Below, piece after piece: positions 7,785 to 29,623 of a stretch of 64,000 bases of DNA. The stretch is from Cruoricaptor ignavus. GTDB lineage: Bacteria > Bacteroidota > Bacteroidia > Flavobacteriales > Weeksellaceae. The stretch covers positions 248,001 to 312,000 of the forward strand of contig NZ_FQYI01000002.1 in the NCBI RefSeq assembly GCF_900141665.1. Reading direction: 5' to 3'. The notes under the pieces were generated by a model. That model saw only the letters and a program-made list of their open reading frames with translations, did not search any database and was not told where the DNA came from. A program made the translations under genes and the position numbers. Position 1 is the stretch's first letter. Every line of letters begins with the position of its first letter.

Positions 7785-9233
7785 TTATAATTCTGTGGCT
7801 GGCTCCAGCAGCTGCTGCATCCTGATTTTCAGTTGGTCCACCGATCCTGAATAATTATTTATCAGCATAGAAAATACTAAAGTCTCGTTCTGGTATGTCT
7901 GAATGTAGCCTGCCAGTGCTTTTACCCTGTTCAGCGTGCCGGTTTTGGCGAAAATCCTTCCATTGTTGTAGTCCTTAAACCAGCTTTTTAAAGTACCTGT
8001 CTGCCCGCCAATGGGTAGTGAGGCGTAGAAATCTTGGTAATATGGCTTCTCCATAATTTCGGTGAGGAATTTCACCTGCGCCATCGGCGTTACATAATTG
8101 CTGCGGGAAAGCCCGCTGCCGTCAGCATAATTGAAGCCGTTTTTATCAAAATTTACTTCCTGCAGGTGCTTGTCCACTGCCGCTCTGCCGCTTTCCGAGG
8201 TATGGTCACCATATTTCTGGAAGCCCACCATCCGCATCAGGGCCTCGGCGAGGGCATTGTCGCTACGCTGATTGGTGTCGTATACGATATCTGCAAGAAG
8301 CGGCGACCGGTATGCCGTGATAATTTTCCGAGGCTCCGGCGATGCGTCAATTATTTTAACGCTTACCGCCCCAGAGACAGGGATGCCGCTCTTCACAAGG
8401 GAGGCCTTCAGCGAATTGCCAAGGTAAGCAGGCGGCTGCGCTATATTGGTAGAAAGGCTACCCCCCGAATATTCATCCGTAAATGCCATCTTGCCGGTGT
8501 ACGGCGAAACATAAAAATAGCGCTGCTTACTTTGCCCCAGAGCCTTTGTAGCTACCAAGCGCTCGCTTTGTGGATTTACATCTTTCGTGCTTCCGGCAGG
8601 AAGGTAATATTTCGGCAGCTCTCTCCACACGATGTTTTCCGGGAGTGTGGAAAGTTTGCTGTCCTTATATACCGCCGTTTGCAAAATGATATCGCCATTC
8701 ACCCGCCGTATGCCGCGTTCCTGGATGGCATATTTAAAATCCGTAGCCACGGAGCCATATGTGGATGCCCCCGCCTTGCCGGTGCCCAGCGAAGGATCCC
8801 CGCTGCCCACGATGTAGAGATTTCCGTTCAGGACTCCTTGCTCGTCTATCTCCCCGGAATACTCCAGCTGGGTGGTCCAGGAAAATTTTGGCCCCAGGAG
8901 CGCCATTGCCGCATCCGTGGTAAGGAGTTTAGTAGTAGATGCAGGGATGAAGGCAGCATTTTCATTGAAGGAAGATATTATTTTTTTAGTCTTCGGATTA
9001 TAAACCACATAGCCCCAGTCTGCATTGCGAAGTACGGGATCGGTCATCATCCTGTCGATCACCTGGTCCAGCCTTTGCTTTGCGGAAAAATCAGAAGATA
9101 TTTTCTCAGAAGTTGTGACTGACTGGTTCGCGTACATTTGCGGGTAAAAAACCGCGGTAGGCGCAGAGGTTTGCGCAATGGCAAAATTGCAGAATGCCAC
9201 CGCCGCGCCGAGTAATTTATTTTTAAAATTCAT
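7785..9233 (-). CDS. dacB: D-alanyl-D-alanine carboxypeptidase / endopeptidase, PBP4 type (peptidase S13)
   Basis: A low-molecular-weight penicillin-binding protein that trims or cuts peptidoglycan cross-links in the periplasm. It has 482 residues with a signal peptide ending near FAIAQ. The three penicillin-binding motifs are in order: S99-T-T-K102, S324-D-N326 and K430-T-G432. The large insert between the first two motifs is what separates the S13/PBP4 class from other carboxypeptidases. A -7 box lies 38 bases upstream and a terminator follows, so it is probably a single transcription unit. Confidence 0.95.
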   Translation of the reverse strand: MNFKNKLLGAAVAFCNFAIAQTSAPTAVFYPQMYANQSVTTSEKISSDFSAKQRLDQVIDRMMTDPVLRNADWGYVVYNPKTKKIISSFNENAAFIPASTTKLLTTDAAMALLGPKFSWTTQLEYSGEIDEQGVLNGNLYIVGSGDPSLGTGKAGASTYGSVATDFKYAIQERGIRRVNGDIILQTAVYKDSKLSTLPENIVWRELPKYYLPAGSTKDVNPQSERLVATKALGQSKQRYFYVSPYTGKMAFTDEYSGGSLSTNIAQPPAYLGNSLKASLVKSGIPVSGAVSVKIIDASPEPRKIITAYRSPLLADIVYDTNQRSDNALAEALMRMVGFQKYGDHTSESGRAAVDKHLQEVNFDKNGFNYADGSGLSRSNYVTPMAQVKFLTEIMEKPYYQDFYASLPIGGQTGTLKSWFKDYNNGRIFAKTGTLNRVKALAGYIQTYQNETLVFSMLINNYSGSVDQLKIRMQQLLEPATEL

Positions 9234-20373: not shown

Positions 20374-20853
20374 ATGAGACATCAAAAAAACAACAAGGCG
20401 GGAGGATTTCTTGCGGGACTTCTTACAGGTGCTGCAGCAGGTGTAATTCTTGGAATTCTTTATGCTCCGGAAGAAGGTTCTGAAACAAGAAGAAAAATCG
20501 CCGACAAGGCTGAGGATCTTGCAGACCAAGCGGCTGATAAGTACAACGATTTTGCTGGAAATGTAAAAGATAGCTACGAAAACGCTAAAGATAAGGTGGA
20601 AGACGCCGCGGACGACCTGAAAGACAGAGCTGAGAACGCTTACGGAGAGGCTAAGGATAAAGCTGAGGGCCTTGCAGACAGAGCGAAAGACGCATACGGC
20701 AATGTAAAAGAGGATGTAAAAAATGCGGCTGAGGATGTGAAAGATAAAGCTGAAGACAAATTTGCAGACGCAAAACGCGAAGCACAGGAGGCTGGCAACG
20801 CACTTGCGGATGCTGCTAAGGATGCGAAAGATGATGTGAAAAACAACTTCTAA
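20374..20853 (+). CDS. YtxH domain protein with LEA-like 11-residue repeats
   Basis: A 159-residue protein. Residues 1-43 are the YtxH type: a basic start, a glycine- and alanine-rich membrane segment (about 10-30), then the LYAPEEGSETRRKI motif. Residues 44-153 divide without gaps into ten 11-residue units rich in A, D, E and K (for example DSYENAKDKVE and NAYGEAKDKAE), the period of group 3 LEA proteins. These would form long amphipathic helices that protect membranes or proteins during drying, freezing or osmotic stress; this is inferred from the repeat. A terminator separates it from the next gene, so abundance may differ within the cluster. Confidence 0.85.
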   Translation: MRHQKNNKAGGFLAGLLTGAAAGVILGILYAPEEGSETRRKIADKAEDLADQAADKYNDFAGNVKDSYENAKDKVEDAADDLKDRAENAYGEAKDKAEGLADRAKDAYGNVKEDVKNAAEDVKDKAEDKFADAKREAQEAGNALADAAKDAKDDVKNNF

Positions 20854-20874
20854 AATTTTTCTTCCAAATATTTT

Positions 20875-20907
20875 AAAGGAACTTAGTTCATAAGTTCCTT
20901 TTTTTTT
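20875..20907 (+). terminator. Terminator of the YtxH/LEA-like gene
   Basis: Ten-pair stem AAGGAACTTA/TAAGTTCCTT with a five-base loop, then a run of T. The T-run merges into TAACTTTA, a near -7 box for the next gene. Confidence 0.9.
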
Positions 20908-20929
20908 AACTTTACAAAAATTTGAAACT

Positions 20930-21235
20930 ATGCTGGATTTATTGAAGCAGTACGGTTCCAAAAGGCTTGAACTTTTGAAAATGGAAGGCATCGACAAAGG
21001 GTCTTCCGTGGCCGGCTGGGCACTCATTTTGGCTACGGCTGCGTTTTTCGGGTTGTTTTTTATCATTATCCTGAACATAGGCCTCGGCTTTGCGCTAGGC
21101 TATTGGGTAGGCAATTTTGCATATGGTTTTCTAATACTTGCCGGAATTTATCTGCTCATCATTCTTCTGCTATTCGCACTGAATAAAGCCATCCGAAATG
21201 CGGTTGCGAATAAAATCATTAAAGCTATAAATTAA
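20930..21235 (+). CDS. Phage-holin-family (DUF1469-like) membrane protein
   Basis: A 101-residue inner-membrane protein with a short charged N-terminus (MLDLLKQYGSKRLELLKMEGIDKG) and two long hydrophobic helices (ALILATAAFFGLFFIIILNIGLGFALGYWVG and FAYGFLILAGIYLLIILLLFAL), then a basic tail. This is the layout of the Phage_holin_3_6/DUF1469 family. Despite the name it is a chromosomal protein of general bacteria and no phage genes are near. It lies between a YtxH protein and a coiled-coil membrane protein, a cluster linked to envelope stress, and probably acts in the membrane. Its exact function is unknown. Confidence 0.8.
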   Translation: MLDLLKQYGSKRLELLKMEGIDKGSSVAGWALILATAAFFGLFFIIILNIGLGFALGYWVGNFAYGFLILAGIYLLIILLLFALNKAIRNAVANKIIKAIN

Positions 21236-21240
21236 ACGCT

Positions 21241-21732
21241 ATGGCAGTGAAATATAATAACATAAAGGAACTACGCCAGAAAAAAGCCCTCCTGAAAAAG
21301 GAAATTGACGATCTTCAGGATCTTATAACTTTTAAAGACACCAAGCAGAGCCTCAGCGTGATGACGAGAGGTGCTTCTGATCAGTACCTTACGAAGGAGA
21401 TGACGCCGGAAGGTGAAAAACTGACTGTACAGACCAAGCCGCTTATGCAGCATATCGGGGATACGGTGACAGGCAAGGCGCAGACCAATTCGATAATAAA
21501 ATTTGATAACACAGGTACTAAAGAAGTGACAAAACAGAATCTACTAAAACTTGGGGCGCTGGCAATCGCGGGTTTTGCCACGAAGAAAATCATTAAAAGC
21601 AGAGGCTTTAAAAACCGGATAATGGGCATCATACTGGTATACTTCGGCCCGAAAATCGCCAAGGTGCTTCTGGACAAACTAGAAGAGTATCAGAAGAATA
21701 AAAGTGTGAACAGCGTGGAAAAACTTATCTAA
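21241..21732 (+). CDS. Hypothetical protein with N-terminal coiled coil, downstream of the holin-like gene
   Basis: A 163-residue protein that I do not recognise. Residues about 8-30 (KELRQKKALLKKEIDDLQDLI) form a short coiled coil. The middle is hydrophilic with no known motif. A moderately hydrophobic stretch follows (LLKLGALAIAGFATKK), then a membrane-like segment (IMGIILVYFGPKIAKVLL). It begins five bases after the holin-like gene, so it is in the same operon, and it probably sits on the inner membrane. Its end overlaps the convergent ApbE gene by eight bases. Confidence 0.75.
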   Translation: MAVKYNNIKELRQKKALLKKEIDDLQDLITFKDTKQSLSVMTRGASDQYLTKEMTPEGEKLTVQTKPLMQHIGDTVTGKAQTNSIIKFDNTGTKEVTKQNLLKLGALAIAGFATKKIIKSRGFKNRIMGIILVYFGPKIAKVLLDKLEEYQKNKSVNSVEKLI

Positions 21733-22741
21733 GTTTTTCCTTTTCTTTCCTATTTACGCTGGAAATTCTGCCTTTTTCGTCAATCAAAATTGCGGAATAT
21801 TCCGGATACTTTCGGATCAAACTGCTACCGGCCTTCTTACCCAGCACCATCGCTGAAGTGGAAAGGCCGTTAGCAAATTCCGTACTGGGGCCTACAACCG
21901 TAACGCTCACCATACCCTTCGCCGGCCAGCCTGTCTTTGGGTTGATGATATGAGAATACCTTACCCCGGAAAACTCTACGAATTTTTCATAATCTCCGGA
22001 AGTAGCGATGGACAGATCATTCGCTCTGAAAACCCTGATGACCTTTCGGTTCTTTGCAGGATTCTGGAGCCCTATGCTCCACGGAGAACCATTCGGCTGG
22101 GAGCCCCACGCCGCTATATCGCCAGAGGCATTTATAATTCCTCCAGGTACGCCCATCCGCTTCAGTAGATTTCGGGCACGGTCTGCAGCGTAAGATTTTC
22201 CGGTAGCGCCGAAACCGATTTTCATCCCAATTTTTTTTAAGAAAATGGTAGAATTAGCACTATCCAGAATGATATTTCTATAATCCACATTCTTTACGGA
22301 ATTTTTAATCATGCGCTCGTCGGGGAGTTTCTCCATACTCCCGTCAAATTTCCAAACCTTATCCATTGCAGCAGTGCTGATATCAAAGGCTCCATTCGAA
22401 ATTTTTGAGAAAAAAACCGCCCTTTTTGTCAGTTCAAAAACCTCCTGCGAAACCCGCACCGGAGCGATGCCTGCCATACGGTTGACCTCAGAGATTTCCG
22501 TGCCCTGCCGCCATTCAGAAATCTGGTTTTCGATGCGGGCGATCTCTGCAATGGCAGCGGCTATTGCCAAGTTGGCCGCCGAAGTATCTTTTTCTACCAC
22601 CGTAATTTCAAAATGGCTGCCCATAAGCTGCAATGTTTCTTTGGAAACAACCTGAGCGAAAGCAAACTGGACTTTTATCATAAGTCCGAGGAGAAAAATC
22701 AGCTTAAATTTAATAGCAGTCGGAAACAATTTGGCCAGCAT
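21725..22741 (-). CDS. apbE: FAD:protein FMN transferase (ApbE)
   Basis: Transfers FMN from FAD to a threonine or serine of a target protein in the periplasm, giving a covalent phosphoester flavin. About 338 residues from the ATG at 22741, with a signal sequence (KFKLIFLLGLMIKVQFAFAQ). Family motifs are MGSHFEITV near the start, FDISTAAMDKVWKF, KIGFGATGKSYAADRA, GIINASGDIAAWG, ATSGDYEKF and SHIINPKTG. It overlaps the end of the PepSY flavoreductase gene by 32 bases, so the two are translationally linked. The likely substrate is the DUF2271 protein of the same operon, which carries a TGAS motif. An in-frame TTG at 22756 is a less likely start. Confidence 0.93.
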   Translation of the reverse strand: MLAKLFPTAIKFKLIFLLGLMIKVQFAFAQVVSKETLQLMGSHFEITVVEKDTSAANLAIAAAIAEIARIENQISEWRQGTEISEVNRMAGIAPVRVSQEVFELTKRAVFFSKISNGAFDISTAAMDKVWKFDGSMEKLPDERMIKNSVKNVDYRNIILDSANSTIFLKKIGMKIGFGATGKSYAADRARNLLKRMGVPGGIINASGDIAAWGSQPNGSPWSIGLQNPAKNRKVIRVFRANDLSIATSGDYEKFVEFSGVRYSHIINPKTGWPAKGMVSVTVVGPSTEFANGLSTSAMVLGKKAGSSLIRKYPEYSAILIDEKGRISSVNRKEKEKLR

Positions 22742-24875
22742 TTTTATAAAATTCAAAATCTTTTCCCGTACTTTCCAATATTCCTTTCATTACTTCCACG
22801 GAATCGCGGTACATAGCAAGGCTGCCACAAAGCATTACGACGCCGCCAGATTCAAGAACCCGCCTAAGCATCAAAGAATTTTGATTCATCAGGTCGGTAA
22901 CGCGGCGCGGATTGCCGCCCCGAGATATTGCCACTTCGGACATTTTGACATTTGAAAATCTACGCGGCAGGCTTTTCATTAATTCGGAAAGCTCGCTTTC
23001 AAAACGAAAACCGCATAGGATGCTTATTTCTTGATGGGGGCTAGATTCATTCAGCATACCAAGGAAAGGGGCTGCTCCCGTGCCGTTGGCAATCATCACC
23101 ACTTCCGGTACGGCGGGATCGAGGCGGAAATTCTTGTTTTCCAGAATTTTCCCTGAAAAATAATCACCGGCACGGAGGCCGCAAAGTAAGCCGGAACCTA
23201 TACCATCCTTGTAATGTTTTACCAAAATCTGCGCATCCCCGGATTGGCTGCTTCCTAAGGAGTAGAACCGCTCTTTGCCCTGAGGGTAAATGCCTAGCAA
23301 ATCTCCAGAGCGGAATGCTGCAGTAGGCTTGAAGCGTATGCAATGTGTAGAATTCTTTTCGTCAATAAGAATATTTTCTGTAATCATAAAGCTCTCAACT
23401 TTCTGATTTTCAAATCGATAATACTCTGCGGCATGGGCAAGCGGAATACCGGACTGCTCAGCCCAATATTGCGCCCATTTTGAAAATTCCGTATAGTTTT
23501 TCTCATTAATTTTATACAACGGAAGCAGCTGGGCCCAATGTGCGCCTTTAATCCAACCAAAAACGCTCTCAGCATATCCGCAAAATTTTGGGTAAGATGC
23601 AGAGCCGAAGCCTACCACGGAAACTAAAATTTTATGGTTTTGGTTGATTTGCTCCAGCCGGTCTTTAAACTTTAGCGCATTCTGTGGAGCCTCGCCGTCG
23701 CCGGAAGTGGCTGTGAAAATAAGTAAATGTTTCGCAGCTGTGAACTCTGCGTAATCATCCAGATTTAAAACTGTTGATTTAATTTTTTTAGAGGCAAACT
23801 GCTGATGTATTTTTTGGGCAAACTGAAATGTTGTCCCGTTTTCAGATCCCACTAAAATGATAATTTCCGCCACGGACGGCTCAAACTCGTTTTTAATTTT
23901 CTTCCAGCTGCGCCGGTACCAAATTGCAAAACCGGACCAAATGAAAATTGGAATTCCAAGCGATGCCAAGCCTAAAACAACAGACCAGGCTGCGCTGCTA
24001 TTGCCGGTATGCAGTATCTTTAGAAAAACCTCAACATTTTTTCGGAAGGGTTCCCTGTGCTCTTCAAGGACGGTGCCCGTGCGCGGGCTGAGCAGCAACA
24101 TCTTCTCTGGGAGTATGATTTTAAAATGCTCCTCGGGATCCTCCGCGTCCAGCGGGAACTGGATTTTCTGCACCTCCCCTAGTTTTATTTTTCTCAAAAC
24201 TGGAAATTCGGCTACGGAAACAGGTGAGCCAGCTTCAGGGTTTTTTGATACCCGCACCTCCGATTCGGGAATCAGGTTAAAGCGGAATAGGCAGAGAACA
24301 GTGCCGGAAACTGCGGAAATAAGCAGTGGGATACTAAAAATACGGGAAGCAAGAATGTGTAAAAACTGCGCAGGGAATTCTGTCCTTATTTTGGAAATAG
24401 GTTTCAGCCAGCCGCCATTGCGCTTCGCCAAAAGTACACTGCCAGAGATGATTATAAGCACCAGCAAGAACGCAAAAATACCGGCGATGGCTCTGCCGGT
24501 TTCGTGGAGGAAGAAGGATCGGTGCAGCGTTTTTACTTGGCTAATGAAGTGCGTCTCTCCTCCGGATTCTGATATTTTTTCTCCTGTTTTCGGGTTTATA
24601 TTAAAGCGCTCTTCATTTCCCTCCTCATCGAAAATCTGCAGCTCAGTATATCCAGCATCACTTCTTTTCAGCTCCAAAATGTCGGGATATTTTTCCTGAA
24701 GCCGTGCTATTACTTCTGAAAGCGGCTCCTCTGTAGAACTTTCCGCGCCGCTTCTAATCCGCTGCCAAGCTGAATCTGCAGCAAGTATTGCCCCGGTCAC
24801 GGAAATCACGAGCAAAAAAGCTGACGAAAATACCGCCAGCAGTAGATGCGAGATGCGCCAGATTTTCTTCGTCAC
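22710..24875 (-). CDS. PepSY-domain transmembrane flavoreductase (flavodoxin, FAD and NAD(P) domains)
   Basis: A 721-residue inner-membrane protein. The N-terminal half is PepSY_TM-like: helices near 10-35, 125-150, 170-200 and 305-330 around two periplasmic loops, with histidines by the helices (ISHLLL, LHRSFFLHETGRA, FLHILASR, LKILHTGN) that could hold heme. Then come a flavodoxin domain (about 345-480, IIILVGSENGTTFQFA, TATSGDGEAP), an FAD domain (RFYSLGSS) and an NAD(P) domain (VVMIANGTGAAPFLGML, VVMLCGSLAMYRDSV). It should move electrons from NAD(P)H through FAD and FMN across the membrane. Its start abuts the DUF2271 stop and it overlaps apbE, so it belongs to a flavinylation operon. 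Confidence 0.88.
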   Translation of the reverse strand: MTKKIWRISHLLLAVFSSAFLLVISVTGAILAADSAWQRIRSGAESSTEEPLSEVIARLQEKYPDILELKRSDAGYTELQIFDEEGNEERFNINPKTGEKISESGGETHFISQVKTLHRSFFLHETGRAIAGIFAFLLVLIIISGSVLLAKRNGGWLKPISKIRTEFPAQFLHILASRIFSIPLLISAVSGTVLCLFRFNLIPESEVRVSKNPEAGSPVSVAEFPVLRKIKLGEVQKIQFPLDAEDPEEHFKIILPEKMLLLSPRTGTVLEEHREPFRKNVEVFLKILHTGNSSAAWSVVLGLASLGIPIFIWSGFAIWYRRSWKKIKNEFEPSVAEIIILVGSENGTTFQFAQKIHQQFASKKIKSTVLNLDDYAEFTAAKHLLIFTATSGDGEAPQNALKFKDRLEQINQNHKILVSVVGFGSASYPKFCGYAESVFGWIKGAHWAQLLPLYKINEKNYTEFSKWAQYWAEQSGIPLAHAAEYYRFENQKVESFMITENILIDEKNSTHCIRFKPTAAFRSGDLLGIYPQGKERFYSLGSSQSGDAQILVKHYKDGIGSGLLCGLRAGDYFSGKILENKNFRLDPAVPEVVMIANGTGAAPFLGMLNESSPHQEISILCGFRFESELSELMKSLPRRFSNVKMSEVAISRGGNPRRVTDLMNQNSLMLRRVLESGGVVMLCGSLAMYRDSVEVMKGILESTGKDFEFYKNAGQIVSDCY

Positions 24876-25349
24876 CTACTGAATTCGGGAAAGTTTCACA
24901 TAACGGATGTAGCCCTTGCCCTCCGTTTTCGTACTTATGGCCTCGGTAGCCAGCGGGATTTCAGCATCTATGGCGTGGTATTCCCGGTCTTCCACAGCGG
25001 TTTCAAAACGCAGCCTGTAGCCCTTGTTCAGCCAGGAATCCGGGATGTCAAAAGTTTTCACCGCGCGGTCCCCGCCTGATACCGATGCGCCTGTGATCGC
25101 GCTCAGCTGCTCAGGTTTCACCTTCTGCGCCTTATTCCACTCTTTCAGGTTTTTATACCATTTTTTTTCAGGTCCCAGCACGGCGAGTGTTTTGCGGTAA
25201 TTGCCTTTAGCATCCACTACAGATGCCACAATATACGCGCCTTCGCCGCTGTAGTTCGTCATCTGGATGAGGCAGCGATATTTTTGGGCGGATACCGAGA
25301 TACCCGAAATTAACAAAAAAAGGAAGCTAATTCTTGCAAAATGTTTCAT
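24876..25349 (-). CDS. DUF2271 domain protein with a predicted covalent-FMN site
   Basis: A 157-residue exported protein with a signal peptide (from MKHFARISFLF to SVSAQ). DUF2271 is linked in the literature to ApbE flavinylation systems. Residues 83-89 read S-A-I-T-G-A-S, the form of the ApbE target (S/T-G-A-T/S), so S89 is the probable FMN attachment residue. The gene lies between the ankyrin and PepSY flavoreductase genes with no gaps, and apbE follows. The protein is therefore the likely periplasmic one- or two-electron carrier fed by the flavoreductase. The terminal acceptor is unknown. Confidence 0.85.
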   Translation of the reverse strand: MKHFARISFLFLLISGISVSAQKYRCLIQMTNYSGEGAYIVASVVDAKGNYRKTLAVLGPEKKWYKNLKEWNKAQKVKPEQLSAITGASVSGGDRAVKTFDIPDSWLNKGYRLRFETAVEDREYHAIDAEIPLATEAISTKTEGKGYIRYVKLSRIQ

Positions 25350-26813
25350 TTATTTTAAAAAATTCAGATTAACATTGTTTTTTTTAAGAGATTCGTTCTC
25401 GGCAGCGAGTTCGTAAGGAGTTTCTCCGAATTCTGTCTGGGCGGACTTATCGGCGCCCATTGTCAGGAGAGATTTCATCAGTGTATCATCCGCGGAAAGC
25501 ATTGCAGCACGGTGTAGCGGCGTATAACCTTCCTTATTTTTTTGGTTAATATCCGCCTCGAAAGTGCTGACTTTTCCCAAAAGTGCAGGGTCATTCTTCG
25601 CGATGGCGATGTGGTACGCATTACTTCCATCTCCTTGTACCGCGGCCAAGTTAAGTCCCGCTTTTTGAAGTATTTTTAATTTCTTGTCAAAATCGCCGGC
25701 AGTCTTGCTGCTGTAAGAATTGATAAGATAATAGAGCGCGTTTTTCCCCTGGTTGTCGGCTGCCTTTACATCGGCACCTTTACTGAGGGCAAGCTCAAGA
25801 ACTTCGGGAGAAGCTTTGGCTGCGGCATTCAGCAGCACCGTTGTGCCATTTTTACTCTGGTTATTGATGTTTTGGGCATTTTCAAAAAAATACCCGGCGA
25901 CGGATGCATCGGTTGCACGGCCTGCCAATATCACGGGCGTATCTCCGGCGGTATTTGGCAAATCAAGGCTTAGACCTTTGGAAACGAGGAACTTCACAGC
26001 ATCCAGAGATCCTTTTTTTGAAGCAATCAAATGGAGAGCGGTATTACCATCGCTATCGGCCATTTTCGGATTAAGTTTCAGATCATTAATCAAAAACTTA
26101 AAAACTTCTTCAGACACAGGCGCAGCCCTTGTCCCTGCGGCTGCATAAAGTATGGCGTGTTCTGTTGGCTTTGCTCCCTTCTTCAGCAATTTTTTTAAAA
26201 ATTCTACATCACCGCTCCGCGCTGCATAATCAAACACCGTGGCTCCGCTATGGTCTTTATCATTGAGGCTCAAGCCTTTTGAAAGCAGGTAATCGGTTTT
26301 CTTAAAATTTTTATCATTGGCCACCGCCAGCATCAGTAGTGTGGCTCCGTTTTCCTCCCTTTCCGCAGGCTTGTATCCAGCCTTGAAGAAGGCTTCGGCA
26401 ATGGCTTCCTCTGCCCTGCCCGTAAGCCCAAAGCCAAGCGGCGTAAGCCCGTGCGAATCTACAAGGCGGATATCCGCACCCTTACGGATTGCTTCTTCCA
26501 CCGCAGGCGTGTTTCCGGAGAATGCGAGCCAATGCAGGTAGTTTGCATTATGATGCAGGATCTTATCCACAGAGTTGCCGGGCTGGCTCATCAGAAAAAT
26601 CACAACCTCCGGTGCTGCGCCATTCATCGCGGAAACCGCTACCGGATCGAAGCCGTTATCTGATAACTCCGAGGGCGAATTGCCTTCATTAATAACTGCT
26701 TTCACTGAAGCTAAATCTGGATTAGACTTCCAGAAATTTTGGTCTAAAAGCTTATTCTGAGCCCCTACTGATGAAGCAAACATCAAGAAAGCTGCCCGAA
26801 ACCATAGTTTCAT
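25350..26813 (-). CDS. Secreted ankyrin-repeat protein of the flavinylation operon
   Basis: A 487-residue exported protein with a signal peptide (MKLWFRAAFLMFASSVGAQ), followed almost entirely by ankyrin repeats of about 33 residues. Clear units contain NGATLLMLAVANDK, DSDGNTALHLIASKKG, TAGDTPVILAGR, KNGTTVLLNAAAK and KEGYTPLHRAAMLS. Ankyrin repeats bind proteins, so it may scaffold periplasmic redox partners; this is an inference. It is the first gene of the operon and its stop adjoins the DUF2271 start. The open frame extends to 26852, but the ATG at 26813 gives the signal peptide and lies after the -7 box. Confidence 0.88.
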   Translation of the reverse strand: MKLWFRAAFLMFASSVGAQNKLLDQNFWKSNPDLASVKAVINEGNSPSELSDNGFDPVAVSAMNGAAPEVVIFLMSQPGNSVDKILHHNANYLHWLAFSGNTPAVEEAIRKGADIRLVDSHGLTPLGFGLTGRAEEAIAEAFFKAGYKPAEREENGATLLMLAVANDKNFKKTDYLLSKGLSLNDKDHSGATVFDYAARSGDVEFLKKLLKKGAKPTEHAILYAAAGTRAAPVSEEVFKFLINDLKLNPKMADSDGNTALHLIASKKGSLDAVKFLVSKGLSLDLPNTAGDTPVILAGRATDASVAGYFFENAQNINNQSKNGTTVLLNAAAKASPEVLELALSKGADVKAADNQGKNALYYLINSYSSKTAGDFDKKLKILQKAGLNLAAVQGDGSNAYHIAIAKNDPALLGKVSTFEADINQKNKEGYTPLHRAAMLSADDTLMKSLLTMGADKSAQTEFGETPYELAAENESLKKNNVNLNFLK

Positions 26814-26824
26814 TTTATTTAGAT

Positions 26825-26836
26825 TAATTATAATTA
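26825..26836. promoter_or_regulatory. Perfect 12-base palindrome in the leader of the flavinylation operon
   Basis: TAATTATAATTA is exactly self-complementary and sits between the -7 box and the ankyrin ATG, where a bound repressor would block transcription. It is short and all A/T, so it may be chance. Similarity to a Fur box is weak. Confidence 0.25.
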
Positions 26837-26847: not shown

Positions 26848-26940
26848 CACAATTATATTTTTTTCCAAACAAAAAAGAGCATTTATTTATAATTAAAAAT
26901 TGTTGAGTAAAAATTGACAGCAAAATAAAGTTCAATTCAT

Positions 26941-26965: not shown

Positions 26966-29623
26966 ATGACTTCAAACGAAATACGCCGAAAGTTTTTAGA
27001 ATTCTTCGAAAGCAAGCAGCACCAAATAGTACCTTCCGCTCCCATTGTGCTGAAGGACGACCCAACTTTGATGTTTTCAAATTCAGGGATGACGCAGTTT
27101 AAGGATTACTTCCTTGGCTACCGTGAACCCAAATCTCCAAGGATTGCCGATACACAGAAATGCCTTCGCGTTTCCGGAAAGCATAACGACCTGGATGATG
27201 TGGGCAGGGATACCTACCACCACACAATGTTTGAAATGCTGGGCAACTGGTCCTTCGGCGATTATTTTAAGGAAGAGGCTATCGCTTTTGCGTGGGAACT
27301 TCTCACGGAAGTTTACGGCTTAAAGCCTGAAAATCTGTTCGTTACAATTTTTGAAGGCGATGCCTCGGAAAATTTGGAAAGAGATAATGATGCGTATAAT
27401 TTCTGGAAAAAGCACATATCGGAAGACCGGATTTTGAACGGAAATAAGAAGGATAATTTCTGGGAAATGGGTGAAAGCGGACCTTGCGGACCTTGCTCCG
27501 AAATTCACATCGACCTTCGTTCTGATGCGGAGAAAGCGCAAATTCCCGGCAAAGATTTGGTGAACCAGGATCATCCACAGGTTGTGGAAATCTGGAACCT
27601 GGTTTTTATGGAATTCAACCGGAAGGCTGATGGCTCGCTGGAAAAACTGCCGAAGCAGAATGTGGATACAGGGATGGGCTTTGAGCGGCTCTGTATGGCG
27701 CTTCAGCAGAAATCCTCCAATTACGATACCGATGTCTTCACACCGCTAATTGCCAAAGTGGAAGAAATTTCCGGCAGGAAATATGAAGGCAAAATGGATG
27801 ATGAGAGGGACATTGCAATCCGTGTGGTGGTGGATCACATCAGGGCGGTTTCCTTTGCAATTGCCGATGGACAGCTGCCTTCCAACAGCGGTGCAGGCTA
27901 TGTAATCCGCAGGATTCTTCGCCGCGCCATTTCCTATGCCTACCGTTTTCTCGGGATGAAGGAAGCCTTTCTGCATCAATTAGTTAGCGTTCTTAAAAAT
28001 CAGATGGGAGAATTTTTCCCAGAAATTTTCAAGCAGGAAAATTTGGTAACAGAAGTTATCAGGGAAGAAGAAAATGCGTTCCTTCGCACCATTGAACACG
28101 GGCTTTCCCGATTGGATGCTATTGTAAATGACACGATTTCCCGAAACGAAAAAACATTGGCAGGTGCAGAAGTTTTCGAGCTTTACGACACCTATGGTTT
28201 CCCAGCGGATTTGTCGAGAATCATCGCTGAAGAAAAAAATCTAAGCGTGGATGAGGCTGGTTTTGAAGAGGAAATGCAGAAGCAGAAAGATCGCTCGAAG
28301 AAATCTTCCGCGCAGAAAATTTACGATTGGGTGGTTCTGGAAGAAAAGCCAGAAAGCTTTGTAGGTTACGATAAGACGGCGACGCCAACCTACATCACCA
28401 GATACCGGAAAATTGAAAATAAGGACGGTGAGTTTTTCCAAATCGTGCTGAGCGAAACGCCCTTCTATGCTGAAGGCGGCGGCCAAATCGGCGATAAAGG
28501 CGTGCTGATCCCAAGCTATGCCAAAGGTTTTGACATTTCCAACCCGGAAATTTTCAATTGGGAAAAATCCGACGAAGTGCTGGAAATCCTGGATACAAAA
28601 AAGGAAAACAACCTGATATATTCCCTGATAAATGAGCTGCCGAAAGATGCCGGCGCAGTTTTCTACGCCAAGGTAAATGCCGATGAACGGCGCAATACGC
28701 AGGGCAACCATTCCGTGACGCACCTTCTGCACGAAGCTTTGCGCGAAGTTTTGGGCACCCATGTGGAACAGAAAGGCTCATTCGTTGGACCGGATTATCT
28801 TCGATTCGATTTCTCGCATTTCGCGAAAATGACGGATGAAGAACTTGCCTTGGTGGAGCAGAAAGTGAACGAGAAAATCCGGCAGAATATTCCGCTGGAA
28901 GAGTTCAGAAATATACCGATTCAGGAAGCGCTGGACAAAGGTGCGATGGCACTTTTCGGCGAGAAGTATGGCGATAATGTCAGGATGATTCAATTCGGCA
29001 CTTCGCGCGAACTTTGCGGCGGTACGCACGCCAAAAGCACCGGTGAAATCGGGCATTTCAGGATTTCTTCGGAATCTTCTGCGGCGGCAGGAATCCGCAG
29101 GATTGAAGCAATTTCCGGCGATAAATCTCTGGAATATTTTAAAAATCTGGAAAATCAGTTTGCCGGGCTTTCGCAACTTTTGAAAACGAAGGATTTGGCA
29201 AGATCTGTCGAAAAATTAATCAACGAAAATGCAGCGTTGAAAGCTGAGATAGAAACGCTGAAAAAGGCTTCGGCAAAAGGTGAAACCGAAAACTGGAAGA
29301 ATGAATTTACCGAAAAAAATTCGCACCAACTTCTCGTGAAAAAAACTTCACTGGATGCAGCAAGCGTGAAGGACATCGTTTTTCAGCTGAAAAAAGAAAT
29401 TCCGAAATCTGTAATCGTGATAATTTCTGATGCCAATGATAAGCCGATGATAACGGTGGGTGTTTCGCAAGACATTGAAAATCAATTCAATGCAGGCAGC
29501 ATCGTAAAAGATTTGGCAAAGGAAATTAATGGTGGTGGCGGTGGAAATCCCGGTTTTGCAACTGCTGGCGGAAAAAATCTGCAGGGCATAGATGCGGCGG
29601 TTAAAAAGGCGCAGAACATTTAA
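26966..29623 (+). CDS. alaS: Alanine--tRNA ligase
   Basis: Charges tRNA-Ala. The 885-residue protein has the class II catalytic core (KFLEFFESKQHQIVPSAPIV, FSNSGMTQFKDYFLG, KCLRVSGKHNDLDDVGRDTYHHTMFEMLGNWSFGDYF), the GGGQIGDKG segment, and an editing domain with HSVTHLLHEAL plus the second zinc-ligand set CGGTH. The C-terminal C-Ala domain has a glycine run (GGGGGNPGFATAGG). The gene heads a run with a DUF5686 protein (20-base gap) and ftsK. Confidence 0.98.
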   Translation: MTSNEIRRKFLEFFESKQHQIVPSAPIVLKDDPTLMFSNSGMTQFKDYFLGYREPKSPRIADTQKCLRVSGKHNDLDDVGRDTYHHTMFEMLGNWSFGDYFKEEAIAFAWELLTEVYGLKPENLFVTIFEGDASENLERDNDAYNFWKKHISEDRILNGNKKDNFWEMGESGPCGPCSEIHIDLRSDAEKAQIPGKDLVNQDHPQVVEIWNLVFMEFNRKADGSLEKLPKQNVDTGMGFERLCMALQQKSSNYDTDVFTPLIAKVEEISGRKYEGKMDDERDIAIRVVVDHIRAVSFAIADGQLPSNSGAGYVIRRILRRAISYAYRFLGMKEAFLHQLVSVLKNQMGEFFPEIFKQENLVTEVIREEENAFLRTIEHGLSRLDAIVNDTISRNEKTLAGAEVFELYDTYGFPADLSRIIAEEKNLSVDEAGFEEEMQKQKDRSKKSSAQKIYDWVVLEEKPESFVGYDKTATPTYITRYRKIENKDGEFFQIVLSETPFYAEGGGQIGDKGVLIPSYAKGFDISNPEIFNWEKSDEVLEILDTKKENNLIYSLINELPKDAGAVFYAKVNADERRNTQGNHSVTHLLHEALREVLGTHVEQKGSFVGPDYLRFDFSHFAKMTDEELALVEQKVNEKIRQNIPLEEFRNIPIQEALDKGAMALFGEKYGDNVRMIQFGTSRELCGGTHAKSTGEIGHFRISSESSAAAGIRRIEAISGDKSLEYFKNLENQFAGLSQLLKTKDLARSVEKLINENAALKAEIETLKKASAKGETENWKNEFTEKNSHQLLVKKTSLDAASVKDIVFQLKKEIPKSVIVIISDANDKPMITVGVSQDIENQFNAGSIVKDLAKEINGGGGGNPGFATAGGKNLQGIDAAVKKAQNI

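Follow-up and report, generated by a model that had tools for sequence, protein, structure and literature searches.

In the 64,000-nucleotide stretch of the Cruoricaptor ignavus genome analysed here (the window; contig NZ_FQYI01000002.1, positions 248,001 to 312,000), a four-gene operon on the minus strand encodes a secreted ankyrin-repeat protein (ANK), a DUF2271 protein, a membrane protein that fuses PepSY_TM, flavodoxin and FNR modules, and the flavin transferase ApbE. We propose that this is probably an iron-starvation operon whose products form an NAD(P)H-driven periplasmic reductase of ferric iron or ferric siderophores, with a covalent flavin mononucleotide (FMN) and an ankyrin scaffold. 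NAD(P)H would reduce the flavins of the cytoplasmic FNR and flavodoxin modules of the PepSY protein, and electrons would pass the inner membrane via two bis-histidine haems and arrive at an FMN attached by ApbE to Ser89 of the periplasmic DUF2271 protein. That FMN would reduce ferric chelates, most likely ferric siderophores imported by TonB receptors, and the ferrous iron would then be taken up. The secreted ankyrin protein may be a dedicated scaffold that lets the DUF2271 protein dock with either the PepSY protein or the substrate coming in; this is the least certain step, and we advance it only tentatively.

The core of the operon is a known system. FMN transfer to DUF2271 and haem-bearing PepSY reductases were established elsewhere, and the linkage, the invariant ligands and sites, and the Fur-type box were observed here. 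The additions are the linked ankyrin protein, the iron box with its expression link, an apbE that apparently has one substrate, and losses of the flavin site. With these, an uncharacterised secreted ankyrin protein gains a named, testable place, published expression data connect a flavinylation system with iron starvation in Riemerella and related bacteria, and an organism is on offer whose one ApbE apparently has a single substrate.

A conserved operon for a predicted periplasmic flavin

The preliminary description of this DNA proposed an operon with three gapless genes and an overlapping apbE, and both the coordinates, all on the minus strand, and the Pfam domains bear it out. ANK (25350-26813, 487 amino acids, ATG at 26813; Pfam Ank_2, 6.5e-41) has full-length orthologues and is followed at the very next base by the gene for the DUF2271 protein, the predicted ApbE substrate (24876-25349, 157 amino acids; PF10029, 2e-35). 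The gene for the predicted electron conduit (22710-24875, 721 amino acids) begins with a GTG at 24875, the base directly after the DUF2271 stop, and its 3' end is overlapped by the start of apbE (21725-22756; PF02424, 3.2e-80), which lies at TTG 22756 or ATG 22741. As to co-occurrence across Bacteroidota, a check that the same description had suggested, ANK, DUF2271 and PepSY genes stand in the same order and on the same strand in 53/53 ANK loci, the window included. The operon is therefore more than chance. A nearby apbE is not universal.

The DUF2271 protein carries SAITGAS at residues 83-89, exactly where it had been placed. Conservation of the TGAS motif points to T86-G87-A88-S89 (25083-25094, minus strand) as the predicted flavinylation site, and in C. 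ignavus the FMN would sit on S89. All 15 aligned DUF2271 proteins have [S/T]GAS, with GAS invariant. The motif was also counted in 55 DUF2271 proteins, 34 with apbE in the stretch read and 21 without; this set includes a lone DUF2271 (L070) and a contig-edge locus whose genome has its ANK on another contig (L086), both outside the 53 ANK loci. TGAS is present at 34/34 loci with apbE, which lies downstream on the same strand in 31 and is convergent in three (L081, L083, L087). The preliminary description had named a kept apbE with a missing TGAS as one finding that would refute it, and 0/34 such loci show that combination. Among the 21 proteins without nearby apbE, for which 4.3-5.8 kb downstream of the PepSY gene was read (1.2 kb in L047), 16 carry [S/T]GA[S/T] and five (L048, L054, L055, L070 and L073) have a G-E-T variant in place of G-A-[ST]. 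L070 is a lone second DUF2271 copy; the other four loci still hold the ankyrin and PepSY genes. The PepSY tree groups L054, L055 and L073 in a single clade (support 0.97), with L048 placed elsewhere, so the flavin site has been lost at least twice. No usable PDB relative of DUF2271 was found, the best match being to a phosphotransferase system protein at E 0.01.

The membrane protein comprises a PepSY_TM region with two predicted haem sites (residues 10-322, 23910-24848; 1.8e-28), a flavodoxin domain (residues 340-463, 23487-23858; Flavodoxin_1, 2.6e-18) and an NAD(P)-binding domain (residues 594-691, 22803-23096; NAD_binding_1, 1.1e-5), all on the minus strand. These are the domains that the preliminary description had named, save one: no Pfam FAD-binding match was reported for the window protein itself. 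The L010 homologue has FAD_binding_6, and the family profile matches NADPH-P450 reductases across the FNR part. H10, H118, H173 and H289 are invariant in 54/54 PepSY homologues. According to PMC11334425, the PepSY-like structure holds two haem sites, each served by a pair of histidines, and on that account four invariant histidines are the pattern expected for two bis-histidine haems; by its sequence, the membrane core is predicted to hold both sites. A C-terminal D-C-Y, including the terminal tyrosine, is kept in 52/54 homologues. The domains imply an order of NAD(P)H, FAD/FMN, two haems and DUF2271 FMN, which supports the line from cytoplasmic NAD(P)H to a periplasmic covalent flavin that was first suggested for this operon. 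Two PepSY-flavodoxin homologues (L014:8970-10454 and L016:9064-10518) stop short of the FNR module, and another reductase must therefore feed them.

Such a line is of an established kind, as the clusters and the flavinylation result of Meheust et al. 2021 (PMC8238504) indicate. That paper reports 3220 PepSY-like flavinylation clusters, names DUF2271 in 2833 clusters and counts an NAD-binding domain in 1077 PepSY genes; the DUF2271 protein of Amantichitinum ursilacus is flavinylated by its cognate ApbE, and replacing the predicted Thr abolishes flavinylation. The link between DUF2271 and ApbE was thus rightly taken as known, but published detail goes beyond the "general terms" in which the preliminary description put it and includes PepSY (PMC8238504). 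With a DUF2271 protein that has an [S/T]GA[S/T] site, a PepSY protein (PF03929 or PF16357) and ApbE, the operon is, from its predicted proteins, a PepSY-like flavinylation system. It shares with the published clusters the three protein classes, the [S/T]GA[S/T] site, NAD-binding PepSY variants and a proposed role in iron reduction. Unlike them, as far as the consulted parts of PMC8238504 describe them, it is not paired with DUF4198 and has an ankyrin gene, which precedes DUF2271 in 53/53 loci. DUF4198, frequent in the published clusters and not defining, has no match in the four operon proteins or in three genes at 20374-21732.

Probable iron control and TonB receptors

A Fur-box-like palindrome lies at the head of the operon. 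Promoter-like elements on the minus strand, TTTG (26869-26866) and TAGCTTTG (26847-26840), are 18 bases apart and presumably correspond to the Bacteroidota -33/-7 consensus; an alternative TTG start of ANK listed at 26852 falls within this promoter region. Just behind the TAGCTTTG element, ATTATAATTAATCTAAA (26818-26834, minus strand) matches TTTAGAATNATTCTAAA with three mismatches (p ~0.015, 200 shuffles). When 150 bases upstream of each of 53 ANK genes were searched for palindromes, TTTAGAANNNTTCTAAA ranked first, with 34 observed against 5 in shuffles. TTTAGAATNATTCTAAA occurs within three mismatches in 30/53 ANK promoters, compared with 1.6% of shuffles. As 354 half-sites with four gaps were tried on the very promoters counted, these figures carry selection. 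The agreement of the de novo palindrome with a published box is independent support: it equals the Riemerella anatipestifer Fur box ATTTAGAATTATTCTAAAT given in the results of PMC5609570, where band shifts support it at several promoters. The abstract of the same paper prints an E. coli-like Fur box, and PMC7976709 quotes the E. coli-like version. This E. coli-type 19-base box gave no signal upstream of ANK and was replaced by the de novo motif.

Across the whole genome to which the window belongs, 62 sites lie within three mismatches, as against 43 for the reversed pattern; weak Fur-type sites are therefore mostly chance. Of the 12 best sites (at most two mismatches), four lie upstream of Pfam TonB plug genes, one of them (L104) between a TonB receptor and a Pfam HmuY gene, and several others fall inside coding frames. 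A fifth candidate (L095) was dropped as a site upstream of a TonB receptor, the gene having no Pfam match. Two short contigs of this genome (L078 on C27, L079 on C23) hold TonB receptor and PepSY_TM genes with two-mismatch Fur-type boxes.

Published expression data point the same way. In R. ANATIPESTIFER strain CH-1, PMC5429918 reports five consecutive genes (B739_0173-0177) induced by dipyridyl, with log2 values of 3.31 for the TonB receptor B739_0173, 3.64 for hypothetical 0174, 2.41 for 0175 ("Ankyrin"), 3.06 for 0176 ("periplasmic protein") and 1.05 for 0177 ("nitric oxide synthase"). In strain YM under iron restriction, the genes that PMC5609570 lists as up are RAYM_04481 (TonB receptor), 04491 and 04496 (hypothetical), 04501 ("nitric oxide synthase") and 04506 (ApbE); RAYM_04486 is not mentioned in that part of the paper. 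Judging from names, gene order and the name of the PDB match, the Riemerella genes are apparently orthologous to the window operon. The best PDB match of the PepSY protein is a nitric oxide synthase, which would explain the Riemerella gene name. Our comparison suggests that the gene so called in two Riemerella studies (B739_0177 in PMC5429918, RAYM_04501 in PMC5609570) is apparently the PepSY/flavodoxin reductase of this operon. The terminal acceptor, which the preliminary description left open, can be narrowed to iron by the Fur-type box together with the iron-limitation induction of the apparent Riemerella orthologue. Within iron, we infer a ferric siderophore.

TonB receptors also accompany the operon. 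Flanking genes of the loci were annotated for receptors and lipoproteins only, and a TonB receptor lies 12 bases to 6.6 kb away in the stretch read around 23/53 ANK loci; 15 of these receptors score above 150 bits with a profile built from five such receptors. A lipoprotein adjoins the receptor in 13 loci, belonging to one family in 11 and to DUF4374 in L016 and L059, the only two with a direct Pfam DUF4374 match. XusB, a ferric-siderophore-binding protein whose gene accompanies those of a receptor and a PepSY reductase (PMC13142918), is of the DUF4374 family. For the 11-locus family, an 11-sequence profile found neither XusB nor any other propeller among PDB sequences. An hhalign comparison with the L016 DUF4374 protein alone reached 94-95% probability across 114-132 columns, so the tie of this family to XusB is weak. 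In L059 (10567-15401), a Xus-like set stands in a row beside the ankyrin operon: one more PepSY gene, then genes for a DUF4374 protein and a TonB receptor. The window genome has 23 TonB plug matches, and its two further PepSY_TM genes are each near TonB receptors.

The operon thus resembles XusABC of Bacteroides in its inner-membrane PepSY reductase and, beside the L016 and L059 operons, in the TonB receptor and DUF4374 lipoprotein; it differs in that the consulted parts of PMC13142918 name no DUF2271, ApbE or ankyrin for XusABC, and the window operon is without receptor and lipoprotein. The siderophore reductases FoxB and HiuB share the PepSY_TM core and the histidines for two haems, but in the parts of PMC12424826 and PMC11334425 that we used, no fused flavodoxin-FNR module or flavinylated partner is described for them.

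The ankyrin protein as a linked element

How tightly is ANK linked to DUF2271 across genomes? Within Bacteroidota, where ANK was searched, full-length ANK was taken as E 1e-40 or better, and all counts below are of phylogenetically non-independent genomes. In the order (346 genomes), DUF2271 is over the cut-off in 37 and full-length ANK is present in the same 37; the 38th DUF2271 match sits below the cut-off. In the phylum (395 genomes, partly overlapping the 346), the 33 genomes with DUF2271 over the cut-off are 28 with ANK, four with ApbE-DUF2271 fusions and G673. The last five are without ANK, which occurs in no genome beyond the 28; 19 more genomes have sub-cut-off DUF2271 matches, with ANK at 1e-40 in none except those already named. 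Among 59 relatives, ANK matches at 1e-5 in 16, of which 12 are full-length, and DUF2271 occurs in 13, the same 12 and one weak match. Left out of the counts were an unrelated ankyrin (L013, E 5e-16), two weak DUF2271 loci (L076, L077), the fusions (L084, L085, L088, L091) and L092 of G673, a 196-residue DUF2271 in a stop-to-stop frame (7904-8494) that the DUF2271 profile missed at 1e-6. This standalone protein has T-G-A-T and, by eye, a lipoprotein-like start, in a genome without the ankyrin family. In G592 (contig C129, 89-3021), ANK-family genes form a tandem pair.

From ATG 26813 the N-terminus of ANK looks like a signal peptide by eye, and its model from four sequences is a repeat solenoid (mean predicted local distance difference test score 91.3). 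Among 33-residue stretches, conservation is highest in 67-99, 430-462 and 463-487. No Cys, and no Met beyond the start, is conserved in at least 80% of the 53 ANK sequences; H87, H261, H401 and H434 are, and all but H87 coincide by eye with the L-H position typical of ankyrin repeats. Given this pattern, ANK would more likely be a docking scaffold than a carrier of metal or electrons. Searched by sequence and by fold, it matched general ankyrin-repeat proteins only, which indicated no partner. NCBIfam matches to type IV secretion system effectors lay far under the cut-offs and reflect the repeats only, so ANK was rejected as such an effector.

In the literature searched, no paper pairs ankyrin with DUF2271 and, judged by titles and abstract openings, none treats ankyrin in flavinylation; the word "ankyrin" is absent from the main texts of PMC8238504 and PMC11334425. 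The ankyrin protein is a new element, not described as part of the system in that literature. A bolder proposal, to which we give somewhat less weight than to the scaffold role itself, is that the flavin-based ferric reductases of Bacteroidota have in ANK an obligate extra subunit. It would be a docking solenoid in the periplasm, passing electrons or substrate from one to the other of PepSY cytochrome and flavin protein, and central enough to have outlived the operon apbE and, in two lineages, the covalent site. If true, natural electron lines exist that work with loosely bound flavin or none.

ApbE and its substrates across genomes

A single apbE and a single DUF2271 gene were found in the window genome, and FMN_bind has no match there. 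In a search that covered DUF2271 and FMN_bind, not NqrB/RnfD, one ApbE therefore appears to serve one substrate. An apbE is present somewhere in 27/27 genomes tested, so an ApbE encoded elsewhere can act in trans on sites that have no apbE nearby. FMN_bind matches were found in 18/18 tested genomes without apbE nearby. None was found in the five tested genomes with apbE nearby (five, of 34 loci), in three of four fusion genomes or in either of two relatives that lack the operon. G230 has one apbE ~3.3 kb away from its FMN_bind gene. From these counts, the operon seems to carry apbE where the genome has no FMN_bind substrate.

A second Bacteroidota architecture (L084, L085, L088, L091) has ApbE fused to DUF2271. 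Both architectures combine DUF2271 with ApbE and have a PepSY-type partner, which in the fusions is a short PepSY_TM_like_2 protein adjoining in L084, L085 and L091, the three checked. The fusions differ in joining ApbE to its substrate, in the shortness of the PepSY protein and in having no ankyrin.

Alternative explanations

Could the same electron line serve another acceptor? The metal might be a different one, chiefly Cu(II), with the line supporting haem-copper oxidases in the way suggested for the PepSY_TM protein CrpH and its TonB-dependent copper transporter; PepSY_TM proteins encoded with TonB-dependent transporters can be copper-linked (PMC13038864). We regard this as very improbable in view of the iron-limitation induction of the apparent Riemerella operon, the Fur-type box and the DUF4374 (XusB family) neighbours at L016 and L059. 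Hardly more probable is that the line feeds extracellular electron transfer or a redox partner in the periplasm, for repair or for the reduction of peroxide or quinones, with the iron control reflecting oxidative stress. Periplasmic ankyrin proteins do occur beside catalases, as with Cj1386 and AnkB. Flavinylated proteins also serve many acceptors (PMC8238504), but the TonB receptors near 23/53 ANK loci speak against this reading. It is unlikely, though less so than either of these, that ANK stands outside the electron line as an inhibitor, chaperone or haem or flavin loading factor of one partner. The lack of conserved Cys and Met would fit such a role, but ANK is retained with DUF2271 and PepSY in the 19/53 ANK loci without apbE in the stretch read and in the four loci with the flavin site lost, and a role solely in flavin loading is therefore unlikely.

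Several observations weigh against an iron-starvation ferric reductase with covalent FMN and an ankyrin scaffold. The window box has three mismatches, and a better match (two) lies at 26995 inside alaS; 23/53 ANK promoters are without a site within three mismatches. No TonB receptor adjoins the window operon, whose neighbours are alaS and the genes at 20374-21732, and the pairing of receptor and DUF4374-type lipoprotein is found beside several homologous operons instead. Iron control is published in two RNA sequencing studies, but the reports disagree on Fur: PMC5609570 reports that induction persisted in the YM fur mutant, whereas in CH-1 the fur mutation derepressed the receptor gene, whose promoter Fur binds (PMC7976709). 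The Riemerella orthology itself is one of names and order, not of sequences compared here. Covalent FMN is not needed everywhere, because four of the five site-lacking loci retain ANK and PepSY. No ankyrin residue points to a partner, and in G673, which has no ANK, a standalone DUF2271 exceeds the cut-off.

Neighbouring genes

At its ANK side the operon is flanked by alaS (26966, plus strand), which diverges from it. At the other end, a terminator-like stem (21717-21740, plus strand) lies between a convergent gene (21241-21732, plus strand) and apbE; the region holds 10 terminator-like sites against a shuffle mean of 7.4, so the stem is weak evidence. The row convergent with apbE (20374-21732, plus strand) encodes a YtxH protein, a holin-like membrane protein and a small protein without assignment, and is perhaps an envelope-stress cluster.

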